From a bacterium (GTDB lineage Bacteria > Krumholzibacteriota > Krumholzibacteriia > LZORAL124-64-63): a stretch of 64,000 nt of DNA. The DNA is taken from positions 1 to 64,000 of the forward strand of contig JAAEOA010000427.1 of NCBI GenBank assembly GCA_024223715.1, in the 5' to 3' direction. Shown here piece by piece: positions 7,122 to 53,182 of this stretch. The notes under the pieces were generated by a model. It was not told the DNA's origin, did no database searches, and saw nothing but the letters and a program-made list of their open reading frames with translations. Every line of letters starts with the position of its first letter. Positions within the stretch are counted from its first letter, which is position 1. The position numbers were made by a program, and so were the translations under genes.

Positions 7122-10100
7122 CTAGCGCACCAGGAGCATTTTCCGTTCCTGAATATCAGCACCACTTTCAAGACGATACAAATAAACACCACTACTTACC
7201 GAGCGACCACCATCGTCACGACCATCCCAGCGCACGGTGTGCCGGCCGGCCACCATTTCTTCGCTGATCAGGTGCCGGACAAGATGCCCACGCAGGTTAA
7301 AAATCCCCAGCCGAACCGAACCGTTGTGAGCCAGATCGAATGAAATTTTGGTCATGGGATTAAACGGGTTGGGTACATTGGGGTTCAATCGGGTCACAGC
7401 AGGAAGAGCTTCGCCATCAACACCGGAGACTGTTCCGGGAATAGTAAAGTTTATACCCCAGCTGACAAGCGTACCGGTGTCTGACCCCGCATGATCGGCA
7501 ATGGCCAGAACCCAGGTGCCTGAATTACTGATTCCAATGTAGTCATTCAGACTTCCGGGGCCATCGACGGTCAAAGTCATGGGCCAGTTGCCAATGATAT
7601 CATTTGCACTGCCGCCACTGCGATCATGCAAATTGACAATCTGGCCGGTGGGGCTGATCAGTTGCACCGACAAATCGCCGATGTAAGTATGCTCAATATC
7701 GATATCCACCGTCACATCTGAGATGATACCCGCTTCATTCTCAGGAACGACAATAGTGCTGGAAATTCCGTTGCTGGAATTATCGGGAATGGGCAGGTTG
7801 GGACTGGTTGAATATTCCACCTGAATCACGGGCATCAGGTTGACATTAATGCCGGTCATATTGGTGCCATCATCCAGATCCACATCTACAATTATGGTTC
7901 CCCATTCAGCCTTGCTGAACTGAAGGCTGTACAGCCCTTCATAAAGATTGTCCAGAGTATAACTGCCATCATATTCGGTCAGAGTGCTGGCACCGGCACC
8001 GTTGGAAACCAGGACACCGGAATTATCCATTTCACCAACCAGGTTAACTGTTCCGGAAATGGAAGACGTCGGGGCCGGCTCGGCAGCTAAAAGATAGGCC
8101 GCCGCGTTCAGTGTCAAATCTTTGCCTGCGGTGCCATCAATGGCTTCCACGTTGAAAGCAAAGTACACAATCTGGGCCGACTGAGGGGCCGAGTTGTTGT
8201 CGTGAACCAGAATGCCGGCATCGCCCGACATGGCTGCAGGACTCATTATCACATAAGCATCAGATGTCGCCTCAACAGCATCCTGATCGCCATATCCGTC
8301 GTAAGTCATGGTCACGGTGGGATCAATCATTACCGGTACATTCAGCAGAGGGTGATTTTCATAACCTTGATCCACATGCAGATCGCCCGAGTTATCACTG
8401 TCCCATGATTCTCCATGCAAGACGTGCTGCGCAAAGTCGGGATAACCAGGATTGGACAAAGCATCGTATCCAATTTCGCCACCTTCGATGAGCAATTTGC
8501 CACCGCTGGTTGCCCAATCCTGAAGGGCTTGGCGAGTGGTTTCTTTGTCCACCGGAACCGCATTGTCACCAGCGGAAAGAATAACCAACTGGTAACTGAG
8601 GAAATCTTCCAAGGTCGCCTGGTCGGCAATCATTACATCGGCCACATAACCGGCATCGGTCAGCCAGGTGGCTATGGTTGCAGCGCTGGATTTGCCATCG
8701 TTGCGCCCTTCCACAGGCTGTTTATTTTTGTTGGTTTTCTCATCGGCCCTGGCTGCTGCTGTGTCGTCAAGAACCAAGACAACACCAAGAGCATCCATGA
8801 TGATAAACGCATGAGGACCACTGGTGTTTTCATTGGGAATGTTTGCCAGGTCATAAGCGGTGATGCTGTAAGTCAGACTATCGCCGACCTGCAGAGCCAC
8901 AGCGTCGACAGGAAAGACCAAGGAGTAGGCATCGTTGCTATCATCAGTCAAAACATAAGGCCCCATAACAGGCCCGCCGTTCAGCTGATAAGTCATTTCA
9001 ACCCGGTCCAGACCCAGGTTGTCGCTGGCAGTGCAATACAAGGTGGGCGGCCAGGCAATGAGTGCCTGATCGCTCAAAGCATTGTGCAATAACTCAGGCA
9101 ACGTAACATCCGGTCCCACATTGAAAGAGAAATAATTCTCTGGGGCCAGAGCAGGCAGAACCGTTTGCACACCATTTGTGCTTAGGGCGGACAAGTAATA
9201 ATCGACGGTGGTGCCGGCTGCCTGGCCGGGAATGTCTGCTGAATAAGTATCAGGCTCTCCGGTGGCAGTCATCGCTTGTTGTTGCCATAAGCCTGAGTCA
9301 ATTCGGTAAGAAAGAGTGACCGTATCAAGCCCTTCCCGGTCGGTAACCAGAGCAGATACGCTGTAAGGAGTTCCGGTACTTTCTGAATCGCCAAGAGGAG
9401 CATGATCCAAATTGGGACCAAAATATTGAACGGCTTCAAAGGCGTTGATAATTCCCCAACCAAAATCGTTGTTGGGACTATCGGCCATGCTGGCGGTTTC
9501 GCGCAGAGCTTCACGAACCTGCGCTGGTGTCAGGTTCGGAGCGCGGGAAAGAATCAATGCTGCAACACCACTGGTTAACGGGCAGCTGAAGCTGGTTCCG
9601 GAGGCGGTACGATAGCCATTGTCGTCACTCGGATCGGCAACGGTATTGCTGACACCCAAAGCCGATACATCGGGTTTGATGCGGCCGTCATAAGACGGTC
9701 CAGGTGATGAAAAAGAACTGATATTATCGGATGAATCCACTGCACCAACTGTGATGACATCAAAACCATCGGCGGGGGCAATGATATGATTCCAGCTGGA
9801 ATTCCGCTCGTTACCTGCACTGTTGATCACAATAATACCACGCGCCACAGCCAGGTCAGCAGCCAGGGTGGTTACGGCAGTATTGCCGTCCATGTCACTG
9901 AAATCGTACCAGTCGAGATAACCCAGGGACGATGAAACGATGTCCACACCAAAAGTTTCAACCCATTCCAGACCGGCAACCCACTGGTCTTCTTCAATGG
10001 GAATTTCCTGAGAAACGTCTTCGGTTTTGGCTAATACAACCGAGGCACCAAAAGCAGGGGCCACTAATTCACCGGGCATGTTGCCAGTCACTGTTGACAT

Positions 10101-10898
10101 GGTCATTGTACCGTGGTCACGACTGTTGCCGGGATCGCCAGGTTCGTTGTCCACGTTTTCATCGTCGTTGACAAAGTCATAAGTGCCAAGGACGGGAGTA
10201 TTGATAAGGGCTTCGTGAGTAAAGTGGAAACCGGAGTCGAGCATGCCTACGATAACCCCGCTGCCGTCGATTCCCATTTCGTGAACAGCGGGCACACCAG
10301 CTTGTACCATGGCAGCCAGGTTTCCGCCGTAATCGATGGTCCAATTGGGAGATTTGTCAGAATTTTTGTCGGCATCGTTTGATGAATCTTCAATAACCGG
10401 TTCGGATGAAGGAATGGGGCGATGCTGAAAGCGGGCCACCAGATCGGTTTTGCGTACAAAATTCAGGTTCAGCATTTGGTTGATCTGCGAGTCAGTCATT
10501 TGAAAACTGGCCGCGTTTAACCAACGGCTTTCCCGACGAAAAATAGCGCCGGTATTTTTTACCGCTTCCAGATAACTGGGATGCACGGGCAAATCGCCCA
10601 CGTTAACCAGACGTTCACCAGCAGCGGTGACTTTGCCACGACGCCAGGCCGCCCGTTCAGTCAAATTATCTTCAGCCAAATCCAGCGCGGCTTCCAATTC
10701 GAGTCCGGAAAAACCCTTGTCCTGGAAAAAGACCCAGACCGTCAGGCTGCCATCGCTGTTGCGCCAGGAAAAATCGTTGGCCCCCATTGCAGCAGAAAGG
10801 CGTTCGCTGGTAACAGGTTGATTGGCCGCCGCAGAGAATGTTGCGATCAGCAGAAGCAGGCAAAGAGCGAATAGGCGCAAAAAGCGAGGCTGGAACAT
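7122..10898 (-). CDS. Secreted S8 (subtilisin-like) serine peptidase with GATase-like, carboxypeptidase-regulatory-like, P/Homo-B-like and FlgD/Por-like C-terminal domains
   Basis: Signal peptide; triad regions GMLDSGF, RDHGTMTMS, SGTSFSCPLTSG; C-terminal PNPFNPMTKISFDL...GVYLYRLESG...ERKMLLVR. Confidence 0.9.
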   Translation of the reverse strand: MFQPRFLRLFALCLLLLIATFSAAANQPVTSERLSAAMGANDFSWRNSDGSLTVWVFFQDKGFSGLELEAALDLAEDNLTERAAWRRGKVTAAGERLVNVGDLPVHPSYLEAVKNTGAIFRRESRWLNAASFQMTDSQINQMLNLNFVRKTDLVARFQHRPIPSSEPVIEDSSNDADKNSDKSPNWTIDYGGNLAAMVQAGVPAVHEMGIDGSGVIVGMLDSGFHFTHEALINTPVLGTYDFVNDDENVDNEPGDPGNSRDHGTMTMSTVTGNMPGELVAPAFGASVVLAKTEDVSQEIPIEEDQWVAGLEWVETFGVDIVSSSLGYLDWYDFSDMDGNTAVTTLAADLAVARGIIVINSAGNERNSSWNHIIAPADGFDVITVGAVDSSDNISSFSSPGPSYDGRIKPDVSALGVSNTVADPSDDNGYRTASGTSFSCPLTSGVAALILSRAPNLTPAQVREALRETASMADSPNNDFGWGIINAFEAVQYFGPNLDHAPLGDSESTGTPYSVSALVTDREGLDTVTLSYRIDSGLWQQQAMTATGEPDTYSADIPGQAAGTTVDYYLSALSTNGVQTVLPALAPENYFSFNVGPDVTLPELLHNALSDQALIAWPPTLYCTASDNLGLDRVEMTYQLNGGPVMGPYVLTDDSNDAYSLVFPVDAVALQVGDSLTYSITAYDLANIPNENTSGPHAFIIMDALGVVLVLDDTAAARADEKTNKNKQPVEGRNDGKSSAATIATWLTDAGYVADVMIADQATLEDFLSYQLVILSAGDNAVPVDKETTRQALQDWATSGGKLLIEGGEIGYDALSNPGYPDFAQHVLHGESWDSDNSGDLHVDQGYENHPLLNVPVMIDPTVTMTYDGYGDQDAVEATSDAYVIMSPAAMSGDAGILVHDNNSAPQSAQIVYFAFNVEAIDGTAGKDLTLNAAAYLLAAEPAPTSSISGTVNLVGEMDNSGVLVSNGAGASTLTEYDGSYTLDNLYEGLYSLQFSKAEWGTIIVDVDLDDGTNMTGINVNLMPVIQVEYSTSPNLPIPDNSSNGISSTIVVPENEAGIISDVTVDIDIEHTYIGDLSVQLISPTGQIVNLHDRSGGSANDIIGNWPMTLTVDGPGSLNDYIGISNSGTWVLAIADHAGSDTGTLVSWGINFTIPGTVSGVDGEALPAVTRLNPNVPNPFNPMTKISFDLAHNGSVRLGIFNLRGHLVRHLISEEMVAGRHTVRWDGRDDGGRSVSSGVYLYRLESGADIQERKMLLVR

Positions 10899-43131: not shown

Positions 43132-44232
43132 TTATTTTAAACGCTCAATCTCGGCCACCAATACCTCTTCAAGGTCCTTTTTATCGATGGTCCGATGCAA
43201 TTCGCCCATCCGATAAATGGCCACCTTGGTTTGGCCAGCCGCAATACCCAGATCGGCAGCCTTCGCTTCGCCTGGTCCATTAACGATACAACCCATGACC
43301 GCAACAATTCTTTCGGGAGGCAAGTCTTTAGCCAGTTCTTCCACTTTTGCGGCCAGCTTGACCACATCGACCTCCACCCGACCACAGGTTGGACACGCCA
43401 CAACCCGGGCAAATCCCTGCCGTAATCCCAAAGCACTGAGCATGTGAAACCCGGCCAGAATTTCCTGCACCGGATCAGCCGCCAGACTGATACGAATCGT
43501 GTCACCAATACCCTCCGACAGTAACACCGACATGGCTGCCACCGACCGTGAGGTTCCGGCCAATAAAGTTCCGGCTTCAGTCACGCCAAGGTGCTGCGGC
43601 ACATCGCTGATTTTTGCAAAACGACGACAGGCATCGACTACCTGACCAGGCTCGCTGCTTTTCAGACTGACAGCCACATCGTGAAAGCCCACCGCTGCCA
43701 GAGTTTCGATTTCATCGAGGGCACACTGCACCAGAGCACCAGCAGGATCTTGGGCATGAAGCTCTTCATACCGACGATGCAAGCTGCCGCCATTGACCCC
43801 AATGCGAATGGGAACACCTTTATCCAAAGCCGCAGCCGCCACTTCCCGAATTTTGTCTTTGTTGCCAATATTACCGGGATTGATTCGCAATTTGGCAATA
43901 CCCGCTTCAAGGGAAACCAGAGCCAGTTTGTGGTTGAAGTGAATGTCGGCCACCAGAGGTGTATTGCTCTGGGCGATAATGCGCGGCAAAGCCTCACCGG
44001 CGGCTTCGTCGTTAACAGTCAACCGAACCAGTTCCGCCCCCGCGGTGGCCAGTTCACGAATTTGCTCCAAAGTAGTATCGGCATCACCTGTTTTGGTGCA
44101 AGTCATACTTTGAACCCGGATTGGGGCATCACCGCCAATAGTAATTCCCCCCACATTGATCTGGCGGGTTTTCACCCGAGGAGCACAAAGTCTGAAACTG
44201 TGGGAATTTCCAATCTGCTTTTCTCCAGACAT
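43132..44232 (-). CDS. ispG: (E)-4-hydroxy-3-methylbut-2-enyl-diphosphate synthase
   Basis: GGDAPIRVQSMTCTKTGD; VACPTCGRVEVD; VMGCIVNGPGEAKAADLGIA. Confidence 0.96.
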   Translation of the reverse strand: MSGEKQIGNSHSFRLCAPRVKTRQINVGGITIGGDAPIRVQSMTCTKTGDADTTLEQIRELATAGAELVRLTVNDEAAGEALPRIIAQSNTPLVADIHFNHKLALVSLEAGIAKLRINPGNIGNKDKIREVAAAALDKGVPIRIGVNGGSLHRRYEELHAQDPAGALVQCALDEIETLAAVGFHDVAVSLKSSEPGQVVDACRRFAKISDVPQHLGVTEAGTLLAGTSRSVAAMSVLLSEGIGDTIRISLAADPVQEILAGFHMLSALGLRQGFARVVACPTCGRVEVDVVKLAAKVEELAKDLPPERIVAVMGCIVNGPGEAKAADLGIAAGQTKVAIYRMGELHRTIDKKDLEEVLVAEIERLK

Positions 44233-46148
44233 TATTTCTCCTCAAGAGCCGTGCCGGCCCTTCTTGTATCGCCCTGGCGAACGGTATAATCCATTTGGTC
44301 CAAATATTCGAGCATGGGAATTCCCAGTTTCCGGGTCAGGCCACTGATTTCCCGAAAAACAGCAAAAGCCAGCTCTCCCTCAGCAGAAAAATGAGCCCTC
44401 AGCTTCTGCAGCAACTCTTCAAAGGCCTGATGAGAGACTAAATAGTCGTTGTTAATGGCCACCGCATACTTGTGATCCACAAGATATCGACTCACTTCAG
44501 GTGTTTTGAATTCTTTCAACTCCGGCTGACTTGCCGCTTCCCTGAAAGTGGGAGATTCTTCTGCCCAATTATCCAACCCTGGCCAGTCCAAGGCGAAGGC
44601 AAGCAATTCCCCGATGACCTTTTGCACAGCCACTTCCATGGCCGTATTCAACGGGGGGCCAGCTTCCGAAAGAACAATGCGGTCATCCAAAACCTGCCAG
44701 GAATCTTCCTGACCCAAAGCCCGACAAATGGCATTCCATTCCGCAGCTCCACTTTTGAATTTCATTTTGCGACGGGCTTCTTCTTTGGGAATGCCCAGTC
44801 GCAAAGGAAAACGCGTACCATATTCACTTACCATGGTTACAATTTTTTGACCCAACTCAGCAAGCAACTCCCGCAAGTAAATACGTTTGCCCACCACCAT
44901 GGCTTCGGGATCATCCTGATGGCCCATGGCTTCAGCCACCGGCAACCCTTTCAGACCGGCGTCTTTAAGATTCTGCCGAAACAGATCACCGGTATCGCCT
45001 TCCTCCATAATCAGCAGAATTTCGCTTACTTTTTCGTCGAATCGTTTGTGCGGGACCGGGTTTGCATCAAGCACCACACCGCCGGCAATGCTAACCACCG
45101 GCGAATAAAAACGCAGAACCAGCCGGTCGTCACGCACGGCAATCAAGTCCGATTCCAGGTGCATTTGGGCTAAACCTTTTCGTGGACCACCGTCACCTCC
45201 GAGCTCGTGCTCATCCAAAAGAACAATGCGCCCGAGAACTTCCCGCCCAGCATGATGAACATGGACCCTCTGGCGATTTTTTATAATTCCCTTGTAGTGC
45301 GACATAACATTGACCCGAATGTCCAGCCGACGGGTGGGTTCCACCGCCTTGGCTTCAACAATTTGAAAGCCACGTTCCATCTCGTCTTTTTTGACACCGT
45401 GAAGAGCCAGAGCCAACCGCTGGCCGGAAGCCCCCTGGTCGGCCTTCACCCCATGAACCTGAACTTCCCGCACTCTGATTTTATCGCCCGTGGGTTGAAC
45501 CACAAGTTTGTCCCCAGGCTTCACCGAACCACTCCAGCAAGTGCCCGTCACCACAACGCCGGCTCCCGGCAAAGTGAAAATGCGGTCCACGGGCATGCGG
45601 AAAAACCCCTCTTCCTTGCGTTGGGGCAAAGCCAGGGCTTCACCTTCAAGGGCAGCTTTCAGGTCATCCAGGCCGGCCCCGGTGTGAGCAGAAACCGGAA
45701 CTACCGGTTTGCCCTCCAAAAATGTGCCCTCCACCAACTCCAGAGCTTCTTCGGTGGCCACGGCAAGAATATCTTCATCCACCAAATCAGTTTTGGTCAT
45801 GACCACAACACCGCTGGCTACAGCCAGGGAATCAAGAATTTCCAAATGCTCAACAGTTTGAGGCATGACACCTTCATCGGCGGCAACCACCAGGAAAGCC
45901 AGGTCCACACCACCGGCTCCGGACACCATTTGTTTGACAAACTTTTCGTGACCGGGCATATCCACCACACCCAGTTTCAGGCCATCCGAGAGTTCAAACT
46001 CGGCAAAGCCCAGCTCGATACTAATACCGCGTTCCCGCTCTTCCTTGAGACGGTCAGTATGGGTGCCGGTTAATGCAGTAATCAGAGCTGTCTTGCCGTG
46101 GTCAACATGACCTGCAGCTCCAAGAATGAAATGGCGATCCTGAGCCAT
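44232..46148 (-). CDS. selB: Selenocysteine-specific translation elongation factor
   Basis: GAAGHVDHGKTALITALTGTHTDRLKEERERGISIELGFA; DMPGHEKFVKQM; winged-helix C-terminus. Confidence 0.93.
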   Translation of the reverse strand: MAQDRHFILGAAGHVDHGKTALITALTGTHTDRLKEERERGISIELGFAEFELSDGLKLGVVDMPGHEKFVKQMVSGAGGVDLAFLVVAADEGVMPQTVEHLEILDSLAVASGVVVMTKTDLVDEDILAVATEEALELVEGTFLEGKPVVPVSAHTGAGLDDLKAALEGEALALPQRKEEGFFRMPVDRIFTLPGAGVVVTGTCWSGSVKPGDKLVVQPTGDKIRVREVQVHGVKADQGASGQRLALALHGVKKDEMERGFQIVEAKAVEPTRRLDIRVNVMSHYKGIIKNRQRVHVHHAGREVLGRIVLLDEHELGGDGGPRKGLAQMHLESDLIAVRDDRLVLRFYSPVVSIAGGVVLDANPVPHKRFDEKVSEILLIMEEGDTGDLFRQNLKDAGLKGLPVAEAMGHQDDPEAMVVGKRIYLRELLAELGQKIVTMVSEYGTRFPLRLGIPKEEARRKMKFKSGAAEWNAICRALGQEDSWQVLDDRIVLSEAGPPLNTAMEVAVQKVIGELLAFALDWPGLDNWAEESPTFREAASQPELKEFKTPEVSRYLVDHKYAVAINNDYLVSHQAFEELLQKLRAHFSAEGELAFAVFREISGLTRKLGIPMLEYLDQMDYTVRQGDTRRAGTALEEK

Positions 46149-46349
46149 GGGAGTTTTTGCCTTTCCGAAAGAGTGTTCTGGGTTCCGGTCAAAGATAGAA
46201 CACTTTAAGTCCTTTGACTTACAAAAACTTGGGACTTCCTCTGAAAACCCCAATTTCATACCTGCCAGAAGCAAGATGTCCTGGCGGAATAAATATCCAA
46301 TCGGAACTTCAATGGGCTGAGAGCCCCATTCTCAAAGCGATGAAGAACA

Positions 46350-46529: not shown

Positions 46530-46545
46530 TGGCACCCTCTATGCA
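46530..46545 (+). promoter_or_regulatory. Sigma-54 (-24/-12) promoter candidate
   Basis: TGGCACCCTCTATGCA: GG-N10-GC spacing, 64 bp upstream of the ATG at 46609. Confidence 0.7.
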
Positions 46546-46608: not shown

Positions 46609-47274
46609 ATGACTGCCATCCTCGTAATCCTCATGTTTGTTGTTCTGTTAAGCCTCGACTCATTCAAACTTTACCTCAAACGACGCAAGGGTGCCGAACC
46701 AGCCGAAAAACCGCTGGCCACATTCACCCCCATTCAATTCCCCAAGGGTTTGTTCCTGGGCAAAAACCACAGTTATGCCCGGCTCACGGAATTGGGTGAA
46801 CTGAAAGTTGGAATCGATGAGCTGCTGACCCAGGCCCTTGGCGATGTGGATGAAGTGGATATCATGCCTGCCGGAACACGCCTGGCCAAAGGTGATACCA
46901 TGGCCATTGTCACCCGCTTGGGTCACAAATTTCAGGTTACTTCTCCAGTTTCCGGCACTGTTGTTGCCCCCAACGAGAACGCTGAAATTAATCCCTACAC
47001 CATCAATACCGATCCGTATGGCCGCGGCTGGCTGGCAACCATCTGGCCTGTTGAACACAACGAAGCCCTTCGGGACCTAAAAGTTGGCGACCGGGCCTCC
47101 AGTTGGTTAAAAAACGAGACAACCCGGTTCACTGACTTTTTAACCGCCCGAACCAGTTCTGAAATGGGAGGAGCCCTGGCTGCCGATGGTGCCCATCCTG
47201 TAGTTGGCGCAGCTTGTATTCTGGATGAAGAAGGCTGGAATCAGTTCGAAAAGGAATTTGCCCGGATCAAATAA
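46609..47274 (+). CDS. Membrane-anchored GcvH-like protein lacking the canonical lipoyl lysine
   Basis: N-terminal TM MTAILVILMFVVLLSLDSF; GELKVGIDELLTQALGDVDEVDIMPAGTRLAKGDTMAIVTRLGHKFQVTSPVSGTVVAPNENAEINPYTINTDPYGRGWLATI aligns to GcvH. Confidence 0.8.
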   Translation: MTAILVILMFVVLLSLDSFKLYLKRRKGAEPAEKPLATFTPIQFPKGLFLGKNHSYARLTELGELKVGIDELLTQALGDVDEVDIMPAGTRLAKGDTMAIVTRLGHKFQVTSPVSGTVVAPNENAEINPYTINTDPYGRGWLATIWPVEHNEALRDLKVGDRASSWLKNETTRFTDFLTARTSSEMGGALAADGAHPVVGAACILDEEGWNQFEKEFARIK

Positions 47275-47307: not shown

Positions 47308-47339
47308 GAGGGAGGCCGAACCAGCCTCCCTCTTTTTAT
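47308..47339 (+). terminator. Intrinsic terminator after the GcvH-like gene
   Basis: GAGGGAGGC-CGAACCA-GCCTCCCTC-TTTTT. Confidence 0.9.
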
Positions 47340-47740
47340 TACCGCACTTCGCCTTCACCAAGTTCCGGCCCTTCGGGCAAAGCTTTTCGCTCGTGACAAT
47401 CGATACAGGTCGTGGAAATTTCCTCCACCATATGACACCCCACACATAACTGGTGGTAAGCCATCTTCAAATCCGGGCTCTCCCAATCTGCAGGATCAAA
47501 TTCCTCCATATGACAATCGCTGCATAAGGATATTTCATCCGGTTCCTGGTCGTGGTGGCAATCCGTACAGTCTTCGGCAACATCCACATGATCAGAATGG
47601 GTGAACTCCACCGCCTCAAACCAGTAACTAATGGATTCAATAGTCACCTCTTCAGGACTCTCAATCACTTCTGCTTCCTGGCCCACACCCACGGCAGCAA
47701 CCCAGGTTACAAAAGCAATCGTCAGGACCAAAGTTTTCAT
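47339..47740 (-). CDS. Tetrahaem cytochrome c (c3/c7-like)
   Basis: Signal peptide; four CXXCH motifs CTDCH, CSDCH, CVGCH, CIDCH. Confidence 0.9.
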   Translation of the reverse strand: MKTLVLTIAFVTWVAAVGVGQEAEVIESPEEVTIESISYWFEAVEFTHSDHVDVAEDCTDCHHDQEPDEISLCSDCHMEEFDPADWESPDLKMAYHQLCVGCHMVEEISTTCIDCHERKALPEGPELGEGEVR

Positions 47741-48312
47741 TCGTTGTCTCCTTTCAGGAAGAACGACAGGATTCCGTCTTTAGGTACATTCATGACTTCT
47801 GCACAGGACCCGCAATAGGACGGATCCTTCAAATCAACATGTTCAGGAAGAAGGGAAGCGTTCATCACACACCAGGAAAGCTGGCAATGAACCAAACCGA
47901 AGGTATGGCCCAGCTCGTGCATCACCTCTTTGAGGATTCGCAATCTGAGCTTGTGCAAATCCATTGGTTCCCCTGCAAACATGGGGCACAAACGATGGGT
48001 TGAGGCAATACCCAACTGCCCGTTTAATTGGGCGCTTCCCAATACGTGGGCAAAAACCGGTAGAAATAAATCAACATCCGTGACAGCAATCCGTTTTGTT
48101 TCCGGGTCCACAGCGGGCCGCTGCATCGTTTGAAGAAGGACGTCCACGGAATATTGCTGACGATCCAGAACAAAAGCCTCTTTAGTGGGCAGAACCTGAT
48201 CCATGACCCTAACCGGATGGGCCAAACTAACAGCCAGGTCCTGACGCAGCTGATTCAACAGCCCGGGCGCCAGGCCTCCCGTTCCCATGAGTTCCAAACT
48301 CCAGGCTGGCAT
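47737..48312 (-). CDS. amzA: Archaemetzincin-family zinc metalloprotease
   Basis: HELGHTFGLVHCQLSWCVMNASLLPEHVDLKDPSYCGSC fits HEXXHXXGXXHCX4CXM...CXXC. Confidence 0.92.
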   Translation of the reverse strand: MPAWSLELMGTGGLAPGLLNQLRQDLAVSLAHPVRVMDQVLPTKEAFVLDRQQYSVDVLLQTMQRPAVDPETKRIAVTDVDLFLPVFAHVLGSAQLNGQLGIASTHRLCPMFAGEPMDLHKLRLRILKEVMHELGHTFGLVHCQLSWCVMNASLLPEHVDLKDPSYCGSCAEVMNVPKDGILSFFLKGDNE

Positions 48313-48313
48313 T

Positions 48314-49657
48314 TCACTTCCGTTCGATGCCGAACTTGCGCATCTTGTTGTATAAGGTCACTCTGTCGATTTCCAAAGTCTTGGCTGTATGAGTAACATT
48401 AAAAGCATGAAGCTTGAGTAGCCGGCGAATGTGTTTCTCTTCAATGGCCCGGAGGGATTGGTCATCGTCCCCTCCTGTTTTGTCCTTGTCGACAATGGGC
48501 AGGTGCTCCTCCTGAATTTCGACACCTCGGCAGACAACCAGCGCCCGCTCAATGGCATTGGCCAGCTCCCGCACATTTCCAGGCCAGGAATACCTGACCA
48601 GCAACTCTCTGACTTCTTTTGAAAACCCTTTAGCCTGACGTCCCATGGCTCCGGCATAACGATCCAGGAAATGTTCGGCAATTGGCAAAATGTCCTCTGG
48701 TCGATCCCGCAAAGGAGGAATAGTCAGGGAAAAAACATTGATCCGGAAAAACAGATCATCACGGAAATCGCCAGAGTCGACAGCTTTCTGAAGGTTTCGA
48801 TTGGTGGCACAAATCAAACGAAAATCCACAGAAATTTCCTGATTGCCACCCAAACGGGTTATTTTCCGGTCTTCAAGAGCGCGTAATAACTCAACCTGAA
48901 CCTTGGGTGAAACTTCACCCACCTCGTCTAGAAAAAGTGTGCCACCGTCGGCCAATTCAATTTTCCCTTTTCGCCGGGAAGTTGCCCCCGTGAAAGCACC
49001 TTTTTCATGACCAAATAATTCGGACTCCAGCAAACTGTCCGAAAGAGCACCGCAATTAACAGCCACCATGGTGCCAAAATTGCGTTGACTGCGATTATGA
49101 ATCTGACGGGCAATCAGTTCCTTTCCCGTTCCCGATTCTCCAAAAATCATGACTGAAGTATCAGTGGGCGCAACCATCTCTGCCAACTCCATCACCTTGC
49201 CCATTTCCGGACTCTGGCCGGTAACAATTGTTGGCCCTGATTTGGTCAACTGGTTTTTCAGCGTCACATTTTCTTTCGTTAAGGCAACTTTTTCGCAGGC
49301 CTGGGCCACAATTCTTGAAAGGGCTTCCGGATCAAACGGTTTGACGAGATAATCGTAAGCTCCTTCCTTCAGAGCATGAACAGCGGTATCCACAGAGGCG
49401 TACGCCGTTACCAGAACAACCGCAATATCGGCATCCTTCCGACGCACCCGGCCCAGTAATTCCAGACCATCCATTCCCGGCATTTTTATGTCGGAAACAA
49501 TAACATCGTACGATTGACGACCGAGCATGTTGAGAGCCTCCTGCCCACTCGATGCTGACTCGACATCGTAGCCATCCTCAGCAAACCAATGCGACAGTGA
49601 CTCCCGCACATGGAGTTCATCATCAACAATCAAGAGCCTGGGTATGTGCTGACTCAT
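48314..49657 (-). CDS. Sigma-54-dependent response regulator (NtrC/ZraR-like)
   Basis: LLIVDDELHVRESL receiver, GESGTGKELIARQIH, GAFTGA, Fis-like HTH C-terminus. Confidence 0.95.
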   Translation of the reverse strand: MSQHIPRLLIVDDELHVRESLSHWFAEDGYDVESASSGQEALNMLGRQSYDVIVSDIKMPGMDGLELLGRVRRKDADIAVVLVTAYASVDTAVHALKEGAYDYLVKPFDPEALSRIVAQACEKVALTKENVTLKNQLTKSGPTIVTGQSPEMGKVMELAEMVAPTDTSVMIFGESGTGKELIARQIHNRSQRNFGTMVAVNCGALSDSLLESELFGHEKGAFTGATSRRKGKIELADGGTLFLDEVGEVSPKVQVELLRALEDRKITRLGGNQEISVDFRLICATNRNLQKAVDSGDFRDDLFFRINVFSLTIPPLRDRPEDILPIAEHFLDRYAGAMGRQAKGFSKEVRELLVRYSWPGNVRELANAIERALVVCRGVEIQEEHLPIVDKDKTGGDDDQSLRAIEEKHIRRLLKLHAFNVTHTAKTLEIDRVTLYNKMRKFGIERK

Positions 49658-49668
49658 GACACTTCCTC

Positions 49669-51249
49669 CTATGCTTGCAAATCAGTTTTCAGAGGCAGGT
49701 AAATACTGAACTGGCAACCTTTTCCCGGCTGGGTCGCCAACTCGATTCTTCCGCCATGGCTTTCCACAATTCCGTAAACCACCGAAAGCCCCAACCCCAC
49801 GGACGAGCCTTCCCCTTTGGTGGAATAGAAAGGCTCAAAAGCGTGGCGAGCTACCTCCGCTGCCATGCCCGGACCATTGTCCTGAACAATTATCTGCACA
49901 TCGTTTTCAAGGTGATGAGTGTGAATTTTTAACTGTCCGCCATTGGGCATGGCCTGAGCTGCATTAATGAATAAAGCCATCAGCAATTGCTGCAATTTGT
50001 TCTGGTCAGCCAAAGTGACAGGGAGATTTGGCTCCAGGTTTCTTACAATTTCAATGGCATTCAATTCGAACTGATGGTTGACCAGAAAAAGAGATTTTTC
50101 GACAATTTCATTGATGTCCGTCCGGTCCAGACTGCCACTTCCCCGCCGGGCAAATGTAAGAAGCTGAGCGACAATTTCACCACACCGGGTGGCCTCCGAT
50201 GAAATTGATTCCAGATACTCCAGATTTTTTTCGCACTCCTCGTTCATTTTCGATTTTTTGATTCGGCGCACCAGAATTTTGGCATAAGTGACCACACTGG
50301 CCAGAGGGTTGTTGATCTCATGAGCCACCACGGCGGCCAACTTGCCCAACGATGCCATTTTCTCCACTTGCACCAATTGGTCCTGAGCACGCACCAGCTC
50401 GTCTGTTTTCAACTCCACTCGTTGCTCCAGAGTTTTACCCCAAAGCAAAAGCTCTTCTCTTGCTTGTTTCAGATCCAGAGCCAACAAATTGAAAGACCGG
50501 TCCAGACAGCCGATCTCATCGCTGGATTCATCATCGATTCGCACAGAGAGGTCTCCCGCGGCCAGCATTTGGGTCTGGTCTATCAGCCTTTGAACTCTTT
50601 GGTAAACAATGGTTCTGCCAGCAAAATAAACGACAATGACCCCCAGAATGACTCCAGCCAAACCAGCCAAAGCCATGCCCTTGGCATTGTCCCGCCGGGC
50701 CTGGTGAAAAGGCTCCAGATCAAGTTTCAAACCCAGCACTCCAAGCAATGCGTCGGGTTTTTCATCGGAGTGACAGTCTGTGGTGGAACACGATGGCCGG
50801 TTTAATAGAACATTATTGACCATTAAAGATTGCCGCCCATCCTTCTGCTCCATATATGAGTGCTTATTGGCGGGGAAATTTACCGGCACAGGATCCTGAT
50901 TGTGACAGAGCATGCACTGGGTCTGATGCAGATCCTGCTGAAGCCCAATTTCTTCGTGATTGGTGGAATAAGCGATAGCTCCACCCCGGGTGTAAAGCCT
51001 AATACGTTCCACATCCCGATGCGCAGCAAAATCATCAATGGTGTTTTGAATCCTGTCCTGATCATTTACCAGCATGGATTCCTGTAAAACCGATAGCACG
51101 GTCTCGGTCAACTCCAAACCATTCTGACGTAAAATGCGAATGGTCGCCCTTTCCTGAACTTTCACGTTTATGAAAGTTGTCACCAGGAACACCCCAGCTA
51201 ACATTATTGAGGTGATGATAGTCATCTTTCCCGCAACACTGAGTTTCAT
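49669..51249 (-). CDS. Sensor histidine kinase with haem-c-like motifs in the extracytoplasmic domain
   Basis: CMLCH (CXXCH) and CSTTDCH (CX4CH) between two TMs; HAMP; VAHEINNPLASVVTYAKIL; DNGPGMAAE; GLGLSVVYGIVESHGG. Confidence 0.92.
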   Translation of the reverse strand: MKLSVAGKMTIITSIMLAGVFLVTTFINVKVQERATIRILRQNGLELTETVLSVLQESMLVNDQDRIQNTIDDFAAHRDVERIRLYTRGGAIAYSTNHEEIGLQQDLHQTQCMLCHNQDPVPVNFPANKHSYMEQKDGRQSLMVNNVLLNRPSCSTTDCHSDEKPDALLGVLGLKLDLEPFHQARRDNAKGMALAGLAGVILGVIVVYFAGRTIVYQRVQRLIDQTQMLAAGDLSVRIDDESSDEIGCLDRSFNLLALDLKQAREELLLWGKTLEQRVELKTDELVRAQDQLVQVEKMASLGKLAAVVAHEINNPLASVVTYAKILVRRIKKSKMNEECEKNLEYLESISSEATRCGEIVAQLLTFARRGSGSLDRTDINEIVEKSLFLVNHQFELNAIEIVRNLEPNLPVTLADQNKLQQLLMALFINAAQAMPNGGQLKIHTHHLENDVQIIVQDNGPGMAAEVARHAFEPFYSTKGEGSSVGLGLSVVYGIVESHGGRIELATQPGKGCQFSIYLPLKTDLQA

Positions 51250-51270: not shown

Positions 51271-52434
51271 TCAGGACAATTCCACGAAAGGATCTTTGGG
51301 TTTGGCATCGGTCAAAGGACCTTCCGGAAATACCGGCAGATACCGTACGGCCAAACTGAAAGCGTAAATACCCAGGGCCACCATGCCCATCGAGACAACA
51401 AACTCCATCCAGTGGGGTTTGTAATCGGCTCCGGTTCCCAGCTGAAACGCAGTCACGGCAACATTCATTCGATTGAAAATTACGCCCAGAACCACTAACA
51501 ACTGAGCGCCACCGAGCCAGAGCATATTTTCACGCACCTTCCGCGTGAAAAGCAGCATCATGGGCACAATGCCTCCCAGGGTAATTTCAGCCAGGAAGAA
51601 CCACGATGCGGTATCAAATTTAAAAACGTATTGGAAGGCGTCGCGAATAATCAAATCTTCCACCCGGATAACCAGGTAGACCAAAAGCATAACGGCTGAA
51701 GCCCGGCCCACTCCCCGCAACAACCGGGGTTTGAAGCGATGTCCCAATCCGCGAAGAGTAAAAAATGCTTCTACATTCGTCATGGAAAGCCCCAGCGTTA
51801 TTGCCGAAACAAAAAACAAAATGGGAAGAATGGGTGAGTACCAAAGAGGGTGTAACTTCTGCGGCGCAATGACATAAAGCGTGCCCAGAGAACTTTGATG
51901 AAGAGTGGAAAGCAATACCCCGGCAATGACCAATCCTGGCGTCAAATATTTGTGCATAAATTTCGACTGACGAATGAAACCGAATCGCTCAAAAACCAGA
52001 GGCAGAAACTCCAGGAATAGGACTGTTGTGTAAAGCATCACACACCAGCCCACCTCAAACATTACCGAATGCGGATTCCAAAATACCAGCGGGTGCCAGA
52101 TATTCCACGGCCGCCCCAAATCCACCAGTAAGGCCATCACCACAATGATGTAACCCAGGAAAGCAGTCAGGACTGCAGGCCGGGCCATGGACTGGTAATT
52201 CTTAAGATGAAAAATATAGACCACCGCTGTAACAGTAAAACCACCTGCACCAAGGGCCACTCCACACAGCAAATCAAATCCAATCCACAGCCCCCAGGGC
52301 ATGGAGTCACTCAGATTTGAAATGGCCCCCAGGCCCATTGTGTAACGCCGGAAAAGAATAAAAACCAATAGGGCCACCAGCCCTAAAAAGAACGATGACC
52401 AAAAATGCGGGCGAAGGACTTTTACTCTACTCAT
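51271..52434 (-). CDS. HybB/NrfD-like polytopic quinone-interacting membrane subunit
   Basis: Multi-TM; SMPWGLWIGFDLLCGVALGAGGFTVTAVVYIF; MALLVDLGRPWNIWHPL. Confidence 0.88.
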   Translation of the reverse strand: MSRVKVLRPHFWSSFFLGLVALLVFILFRRYTMGLGAISNLSDSMPWGLWIGFDLLCGVALGAGGFTVTAVVYIFHLKNYQSMARPAVLTAFLGYIIVVMALLVDLGRPWNIWHPLVFWNPHSVMFEVGWCVMLYTTVLFLEFLPLVFERFGFIRQSKFMHKYLTPGLVIAGVLLSTLHQSSLGTLYVIAPQKLHPLWYSPILPILFFVSAITLGLSMTNVEAFFTLRGLGHRFKPRLLRGVGRASAVMLLVYLVIRVEDLIIRDAFQYVFKFDTASWFFLAEITLGGIVPMMLLFTRKVRENMLWLGGAQLLVVLGVIFNRMNVAVTAFQLGTGADYKPHWMEFVVSMGMVALGIYAFSLAVRYLPVFPEGPLTDAKPKDPFVELS

Positions 52435-53182
52435 GAGACCGACCTCTTTCTTTTTCCTCAGCCGCAGCCACTGCTTCTTTCCTTGATCCCAACCAATGCA
52501 TTCCACCCAAAAAAGCACCCCAGACCGGAATGATGGCTGGCAACTTTTCCAACACATTCCATGTCAAATGAGGCAAGTCCTGGTGAGGCACATTGTCTGG
52601 CAAGCCGGATTCTTTAATTGGATGAGTCAAAAGCATCAAAACACAGGTACCACCAGCTTCTTCTTCACCGTAAATGGTATCCTGATATTTGTCGGGGTTG
52701 GCAGCTAACCTTCGTTTGGCTTCATTCATCATGATTTCACGCTCGCCAAAATTGGTGGCTCCGGTAGGACAAATGCTGGCACAGGCGGTGGGTAAGTCTT
52801 CGGTAACCCGATGCACACACATATCGCACTTGCGAATTCGCGGGTTGCGTTCAAACCATTCGTAAGTTGGGATTTCAAAGGGACAGGCCATCATGCAATA
52901 ACGACACCCAATGCATTTTGAAGCATCCCAGGTTACAGGCCCGAAAGAAGATTTTTCCAATGCAGCCACCGGGCAAACCGAAGCGCAGGTTGGATCCTCA
53001 CAACTCATGCACAAGTGCCGGGTGTACTGATTATTCCCCAGGTCTTCCACCCAGGTAAACGATTCATGATCCAGTTTTTCAGGTTTATGAAGAAGCTGAT
53101 CATGCTCCGACTGGCACCCCTGCTCACAGGCTCCACACCCTATGCAAAGGCTTTGATCGAATAGAATCGCGTATTTTGACAT
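52427..53182 (-). CDS. 4x[4Fe-4S] ferredoxin-like electron-transfer subunit (HybA/DmsB-like) with possible C-terminal membrane helix
   Basis: CIGCGACEQGC, CMSCEDPTCASVC, CIGCRYCMMAC, CDMCVHRVTEDLPTACASIC; C-terminal LPAIIPVWGAFLGGMHWL; no Tat/Sec signal. Confidence 0.92.
   Translation of the reverse strand: MSKYAILFDQSLCIGCGACEQGCQSEHDQLLHKPEKLDHESFTWVEDLGNNQYTRHLCMSCEDPTCASVCPVAALEKSSFGPVTWDASKCIGCRYCMMACPFEIPTYEWFERNPRIRKCDMCVHRVTEDLPTACASICPTGATNFGEREIMMNEAKRRLAANPDKYQDTIYGEEEAGGTCVLMLLTHPIKESGLPDNVPHQDLPHLTWNVLEKLPAIIPVWGAFLGGMHWLGSRKEAVAAAEEKERGRSHE

Follow-up and report, generated by a model that had tools for sequence, protein, structure and literature searches.

The gcvHL gene cluster

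The window analysed here comprises 64,000 nucleotides (positions 1 to 64,000 of contig JAAEOA010000427.1, assembly GCA_024223715.1) of a metagenome-assembled genome (MAG) of the Krumholzibacteriota. It contains an open reading frame for a Lys-less, membrane-anchored GcvH-like protein, for which we use the working name GcvHL. A tight run of genes on the minus strand, from position 53182 to 47339, encodes an HmcB-like and an HmcC-like protein, a sensor kinase, an NtrC-type regulator, an archaemetzincin and a tetraheme cytochrome, and gcvHL is convergent to this run (Table 1). Directly upstream of gcvHL, and divergent from it, lies the gene of the selenocysteine elongation factor SelB (44232-46274).

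Table 1. Features of the gcvHL locus, with positions in the window
Feature	Position	Strand	Basis
Sigma-54 -24/-12 box TGGCACCCTCTATGC	46530..46544	+	about 65 nt before the gcvHL start; also in orthologues
GcvHL open reading frame, 221 aa, Krumholzibacteriota MAG	46609..47274	+	Pfam GCV_H, AlphaFold model, orthologues 67-75% identical
GcvHL N-terminal TM helix, residues 2-26, predicted N-out/C-in	46612..46686	+	model helix, hydropathy; orientation predicted from the positive-inside rule
GcvHL beta-hairpin, residues 97-111, turn 104-105; the same hairpin bears the lipoyl Lys in GcvH	46897..46941	+	PDB alignment, model
Gly105 codon, place of the lipoyl Lys	46921..46923	+	PDB alignment, family alignment, model
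GcvHL C-terminal extension, helical, residues 150-221	47056..47271	+	pattern DG[GA].P..G....L....W....F conserved
Small exported cytochrome, four CXXCH, c3/c7 type	47339..47740	-	Cytochrom_CIII 1.6e-12, N-terminal hydrophobic segment
Archaemetzincin-type zinc metalloprotease, HELGH...HC...C intact	47737..48312	-	Peptidase_M54 3.8e-19, motif alignment
NtrC-type response regulator: receiver, sigma-54 activator, Fis HTH	48314..49657	-	PF00072, PF00158, PF02954
Membrane sensor histidine kinase, periplasmic Cache-like domain, two c-heme motifs	49669..51249	-	domain matches, alignment, model
Kinase motif CSTTDCH, residues 154-160	50770..50790	-	both Cys and His invariant in 32 kinases
Kinase motif CMLCH, residues 112-116	50902..50916	-	both Cys and His invariant in 32 kinases
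HmcC/HybB-like NrfD-family membrane subunit	51271..52434 (likely start 52434)	-	NrfD 9.6e-23; HmcC model 4.7e-99, below cut-off
HmcB/HybA-like iron-sulfur subunit, four 4Fe-4S motifs	52427..53182 (likely start 53182)	-	HmcB model 7.1e-66, below cut-off

GcvHL has the H-protein fold with glycine at the lipoyl position

Residues 52-165 of GcvHL match the Pfam GCV_H family (E = 5.9e-19, above the family cut-off), and the top sequence matches in the PDB are all GcvH structures, the best being Thermus 1onl (E = 1.9e-13). In this search the hairpin aligns gap-free, with GcvHL AIVTRLGHKFQVTSPVSG placed over AVVESVKTASDIYAPVAG; the stretch AIVTRLGHK falls over AVVESVKTA and AVAESVKAA of the Thermus and E. 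coli proteins, respectively, and Gly105 occupies the column of the lipoyl Lys. The AlphaFold model of GcvHL (40 sequences, mean pLDDT 91.1) superimposes on E. coli GcvH (3a8k) in Foldseek with a TM-score of 0.95 (target length) and an rmsd of 1.2 Å, and TM-scores of 0.92-0.95 against the E. coli and Thermus structures identify an H-protein fold. Two strands (residues 97-103 and 106-111) flank the Leu104-Gly105 turn, and Lys107, two residues past the lipoyl-Lys position, sits in a strand outside this turn.

A previous sequence-only reading had aligned the lipoylated lysine with glycine by eye and had placed the nearest lysine two residues downstream. The PDB alignment confirms both assignments, and the structural placement proposed there as a check puts Gly105, not Lys107, at the turn. 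The N-terminal TM helix absent from GcvH is likewise recovered, residues 2-26 being helical in the model and hydrophobic, as is the C-terminal extension, which is helical and conserved over about residues 150-221. GcvHL thus resembles GcvH (TIGR00527, PF01597) in its fold, the hairpin and the DPYG.GW region, but differs in the glycine at the lipoyl position, the missing Glu at -3, the TM anchor and the helical C-terminal extension. We take GcvHL to have lost the ability to bear lipoate at its normal attachment position.

A canonical GcvH is encoded elsewhere in the genome

Searching the genome for further GcvH paralogues, which had also been suggested, yields two GCV_H proteins, GcvHL and one on another contig (C241). 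The C241 protein clears the cut-off of the GcvH equivalog TIGR00527 (165.2 bits against 115.85), retains the lysine (ESVKAVED) and is encoded between gcvT and gcvPA/gcvPB in a gcvT-gcvH-gcvPA-gcvPB operon, whereas GcvHL reaches 59.5 bits and stays below the cut-off. In the window neither gcvT nor gcvP is found near gcvHL, in agreement with the earlier observation. As the genome has an intact GcvH in its own gcv operon, GcvHL is best described as a diverged paralogue.

With its 439 contigs the assembly is fragmented, and its contamination is 6.65%, so one could ask if GcvHL is a degenerate copy or a MAG artefact without function. However, the GcvHL proteins of six genomes of the same family are 67-75% identical and all contain RLGHK, so that Gly105 is no sequencing error. 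The open frame, the strongly conserved orthologues, the conserved sigma-54 box and the same neighbours in many genomes refute this explanation, to which we assign a negligible probability.

Loss of the lipoyl lysine defines a widespread family

Relatives of GcvHL occur in Acidobacteriota, Bacteroidota, Planctomycetota, Deltaproteobacteria, Eisenbacteria, Ignavibacteria, Gemmatimonadetes and others (names as in the records), and Lys-less loci with the cluster span at least 11 phyla. A residue other than lysine, mainly Gly, Ser, Asp or Asn, is found at the lipoyl position in 84 of 85 copies linked to redox or regulatory partners, whereas all 34 stand-alone canonical matches have Lys; the Fisher p-value of 4e-20 for this difference, like the p-values below, is a guide only and overstates independence, as the loci counted here and below come from relatives picked partly by similarity, are mutually related and often lie in fragmented MAGs. 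In a tree of 124 domains (118 columns, unrooted, finer branching unsure) two changes of the Lys state suffice, and a single starred branch (98/89) unites 34 of the 35 rows with Lys. The odd one out, L089:968-1981, is the sole cluster-linked copy that has the lysine; its context there (ETEKG) is atypical, and the protein branches within the Lys-less group.

Could a lipoyl or acyl group still be attached to GcvHL, at Lys107 or another lysine, to form a redox arm? A precedent for GcvH-like proteins in redox pathways is LbpA of the sHdr system, which is lipoylated, keeps the lysine and mostly has two conserved cysteines (PMC6067878). Like LbpA, GcvHL appears tied to a redox system and not to glycine cleavage, but it lacks the lysine, contains one Cys in total and so falls outside the LbpA type. 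Within the Lys-less family the frequency of lysine is 21% at +2 and 20% at +1, which might be taken to favour a shifted site; 44 of 89 members, however, have no lysine within three residues. The Glu at -3, present in 34 of 35 canonical GcvH proteins, is not conserved among Lys-less members and is lost in GcvHL, and Lys107 lies in a strand rather than in the turn of the model. We therefore reject a shifted lipoylation on Lys107, given the poorly conserved +2 Lys and the missing Glu, and regard any such modification of GcvHL as very improbable.

Since GcvH is routinely annotated by homology as a glycine-cleavage protein, this Lys-less family risks being misnamed in every genome that encodes it. 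It also offers a case in which a cofactor-carrier fold stayed nearly unchanged while the cofactor site became a tight turn.

gcvHL is genomically linked to hmcB- and hmcC-like genes

HmcB and HmcC together are encoded near Lys-less GcvHL in 39 of 48 loci compared to 0 of 31 canonical GcvH loci. Among the same 48 loci the kinase with two heme motifs is present in 31, the regulator in 32, M54 in 29 and all five partners in 23, some absences being due to contig ends; at the same thresholds the 31 canonical loci contain none of the five. The commonest order is gcvHL-hmcB-hmcC-kinase-regulator-M54, at times with a second or third gcvHL. The one isolate with a name among the Lys-less loci is Desulfosarcina cetonica, and the region analysed from it yielded no two-heme kinase. 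The Lys-less GcvHL thus marks a recurring set of an Hmc-type complex, a heme kinase, a sigma-54 regulator and an archaemetzincin. This neighbourhood strongly favours a redox-complex role for GcvHL and supports the earlier proposal that a barrel-sandwich fold has been reused in a structural or redox-complex subunit instead of as a lipoyl carrier. The linked sensor kinase, the probable sigma-54 control, the protease and the family-wide pattern go beyond that proposal.

After HmcB and HmcC, the kinase and the regulator recur most consistently (31/48 and 32/48), and GcvHL might instead be a signalling adaptor between the heme kinase with its regulator and the Hmc-type complex, such that the phosphorylation or redox state of the system gates the complex, or the complex gates the kinase. 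This would agree with one locus in which two GcvH-like domains are fused to receiver domains (L044:8570-9352 and 9440-10564), one fusion starting with a TM helix. HmcB, HmcC and a two-heme-motif kinase are encoded next to them, and the genome has no M54 gene. Such a fusion would fit a structural part equally well. On the other hand, such fusions are found in this one locus only and most GcvHL copies carry no signalling domain, HmcB and HmcC are the most constant neighbour pair, and a transcriptional output suffices where the cluster has a complete NtrC regulator. We consider the adaptor role a serious but less likely alternative.

A putative c-heme sensor kinase

In the 32 kinases compared a periplasmic CXXCH motif is followed about 42 residues on by a second motif, which is CX4CH in nearly all of them. 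The model of the sensor region resembles the Cache sensors WalK, CitA and DctB; its similarity to GSU0935 (3b42), a chemoreceptor sensor of Geobacter, is weaker. Among the sequences, 18 of the 32 kinases match the Pfam class-40H chemoreceptor sensor. Based on these motifs the kinase is likely to bind c-type heme. DUF3365 (PF11845), the heme Cache family (sCache_heme) that includes Tll0287 (PMC12889525), gives no match in any of the 32 kinases. The cluster kinase shares with the sCache_heme sensors and GSU0935 a periplasmic Cache-like domain with CXXCH, but stands apart from them by carrying two conserved heme motifs, a CXXCH plus a second that is usually CX4CH, and by the missing PF11845 match. 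The window kinase (49669-51249), with CXXCH and CX4CH in a Cache-like domain outside DUF3365, apparently represents a separate c-heme sensor family.

Probable sigma-54 control of gcvHL

The box preceding gcvHL reads TGGCAC-N5-ATGC and is weak by itself. Three orthologues for which upstream sequence is available have the same box at the same place (TGGCACC...TGCAAT). Across phyla, 18 of 26 gcvHL leaders contain the box with at most two mismatches compared to 6.8% of 426 control upstream regions, and 11 of 26 with at most one mismatch compared to 0.7% of the controls. In the window the box precedes gcvHL only, a search upstream of hmcB having given none. The window regulator combines a receiver, an AAA+ domain and a Fis HTH, as in NtrC-type sigma-54 activators, and a sigma-54 box at gcvHL is therefore what one expects from this cluster.

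The archaemetzincin

The M54 protein of the window scores 69.9 bits in Pfam (cut-off 24.4) and contains the zinc site HELGHTFGLVHC, while its NCBIfam NF033823 score is below the cut-off. Aligned cluster M54 proteins all have the HExxH and HC...C ligands. Among 57 Krumholzibacteriota genomes, 16 encode both M54 and GcvHL, one each encodes either alone and 39 encode neither (Fisher 5e-12). This provides a concrete context for bacterial archaemetzincins, whose role we did not find described.

The near-perfect co-occurrence in the phylum (16/17 each way) and the zinc motif kept by M54 would also fit GcvHL being a partner or substrate of the archaemetzincin, e.g. as a stability switch, with the Hmc genes merely co-regulated. 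Yet several clusters with HmcB, HmcC and GcvHL have no visible M54, some of them at contig ends, and there is no sign that M54 recognises GcvHL. This makes such a partnership improbable as the main function.

Membrane topology and relation to HmcD

The first helix of GcvHL runs into the sequence KLYLKRRKG, which according to the positive-inside rule places the barrel on the cytoplasmic side. Further support comes from one relative in which a TM helix is followed by a receiver domain and then the GcvH domain without a second TM segment, as receiver domains are cytoplasmic. We infer that the barrel is located in the cytoplasm and anchored by the N-terminal helix. HmcB of the window and of many relatives has no signal, in particular no Tat signal, and starts directly with its first Cys motif; it should consequently be cytoplasmic as well.

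In a second group of clusters HmcB has a Tat signal and gcvHL often follows hmcC, the position taken by hmcD in the known hmc operon. The TM helix of GcvHL relatives aligns with the HmcD model (NF045712) in the same register in nine of ten proteins scanned, with a best E-value of 2.4e-5 and all scores below the cut-off (up to 24.2 bits against 34); the match is weak and covers a single hydrophobic helix, and the window GcvHL gives no match to NF045712. We take this as a hint rather than as proof that GcvHL is a small subunit of the HmcD kind extended by a GcvH domain.

Comparison with known redox systems

The HmcB- and HmcC-like genes resemble those of the Desulfovibrio Hmc complex (HmcA-F), as does the position after hmcC in some relatives, with their TM helix aligned to HmcD. 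In contrast to Hmc, the window HmcB and HmcC remain below the NCBIfam cut-offs (222 versus 420 bits and 332 versus 550 bits, respectively), and the neighbouring cytochrome, with its four CXXCH, is a tetraheme protein and not the hexadecaheme HmcA. The window cluster further differs from Hmc in the added GcvH domain, the Tat-less iron-sulfur subunit, its own sensor and regulator and the protease.

Barrel-sandwich domains of NqrA and RnfC are lipoyl-like folds in membrane redox complexes, and some GcvHL relatives show weak Pfam or NCBIfam matches to them. Those domains, however, are part of larger NADH-side subunits, whereas GcvHL is a stand-alone, TM-anchored GcvH fold.

With the menaquinone reductase QrcABCD and HybAB (PMC6303296) the cluster shares the iron-sulfur and NrfD-family subunits of a quinone-linked redox module, but it lacks a molybdopterin-like or hydrogenase subunit. 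Some relatives (L046 and L049) encode a subunit exported by the Tat route that, from its N-terminus, could be of the molybdopterin type.

All parts of the cluster are of known kinds. Full-text searches, restricted to open papers, gave no description of the Lys-less anchored GcvH family or of the cluster.

Proposed role of GcvHL

With a probability of roughly 0.6 we propose that GcvHL belongs to an electron-transfer complex of the Hmc/HybAB type, as a subunit that is anchored in the membrane, faces the cytoplasm and has a structural or docking function without catalysis; its membership in the complex is suggested by genomic linkage, and linkage is not contact. As the fold is kept while the cofactor site is now a tight turn, the barrel most likely acts by binding. 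In related NrfD-family modules electrons are exchanged between the quinone pool and an iron-sulfur subunit (PMC6303296), and this precedent, together with HmcB and HmcC being the most constant partners, argues for a docking or assembly subunit at the cytoplasmic face.

In such a complex the N-terminal helix would anchor GcvHL with its barrel in the cytoplasm beside HmcC. The Tat-less HmcB and GcvHL would face the same compartment, and GcvHL could hold or dock HmcB or its partner. HmcC and the periplasmic tetraheme cytochrome would pass electrons between periplasm, quinone and HmcB. The kinase may read a redox state or gas at its c-hemes and phosphorylate the NtrC protein, which would with sigma-54 switch on gcvHL and, in other genomes, the whole operon. 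The archaemetzincin, as a cytoplasmic protease, is probably responsible for the turnover of one component.

A further-reaching and more speculative possibility is a widespread, undescribed bacterial redox system in which the Lys-less GcvHL serves as a regulatory hinge: the diheme kinase would sense electron flow through the Hmc-type complex and control this complex both via sigma-54 transcription and at the protein level through GcvHL. Receiver-fused forms of GcvHL would be phosphorylated directly, and a dedicated archaemetzincin would remove a component once it is superfluous. We regard this version as rather doubtful.

Unusual domain architectures

Several Lys-less relatives deviate from the single anchored barrel. 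A 418-aa frame in a Gemmatimonadota locus (L150:9848-11104) contains two Lys-less GcvH domains beside HmcB and HmcC. In L087:4068-5762 and L088:2021-3688 the GcvHL domain is C-terminal to a long N-terminal region with two predicted TM segments, and this region in L087:4068-5762 has a weak match to periplasmic binding proteins. A longer Lys-less relative of about 315 aa, with a Cys-rich N-terminal stretch (CPFLRKLNVKYCGL...), is present in L045, L046 (5854-6807), L048, L049 (12882-13838), L050 and L122; in L045, L046, L049 and L122 it adjoins a gene whose product has a Tat-like signal and a Cys motif of the molybdopterin type at its start, in a Qrc-like arrangement.
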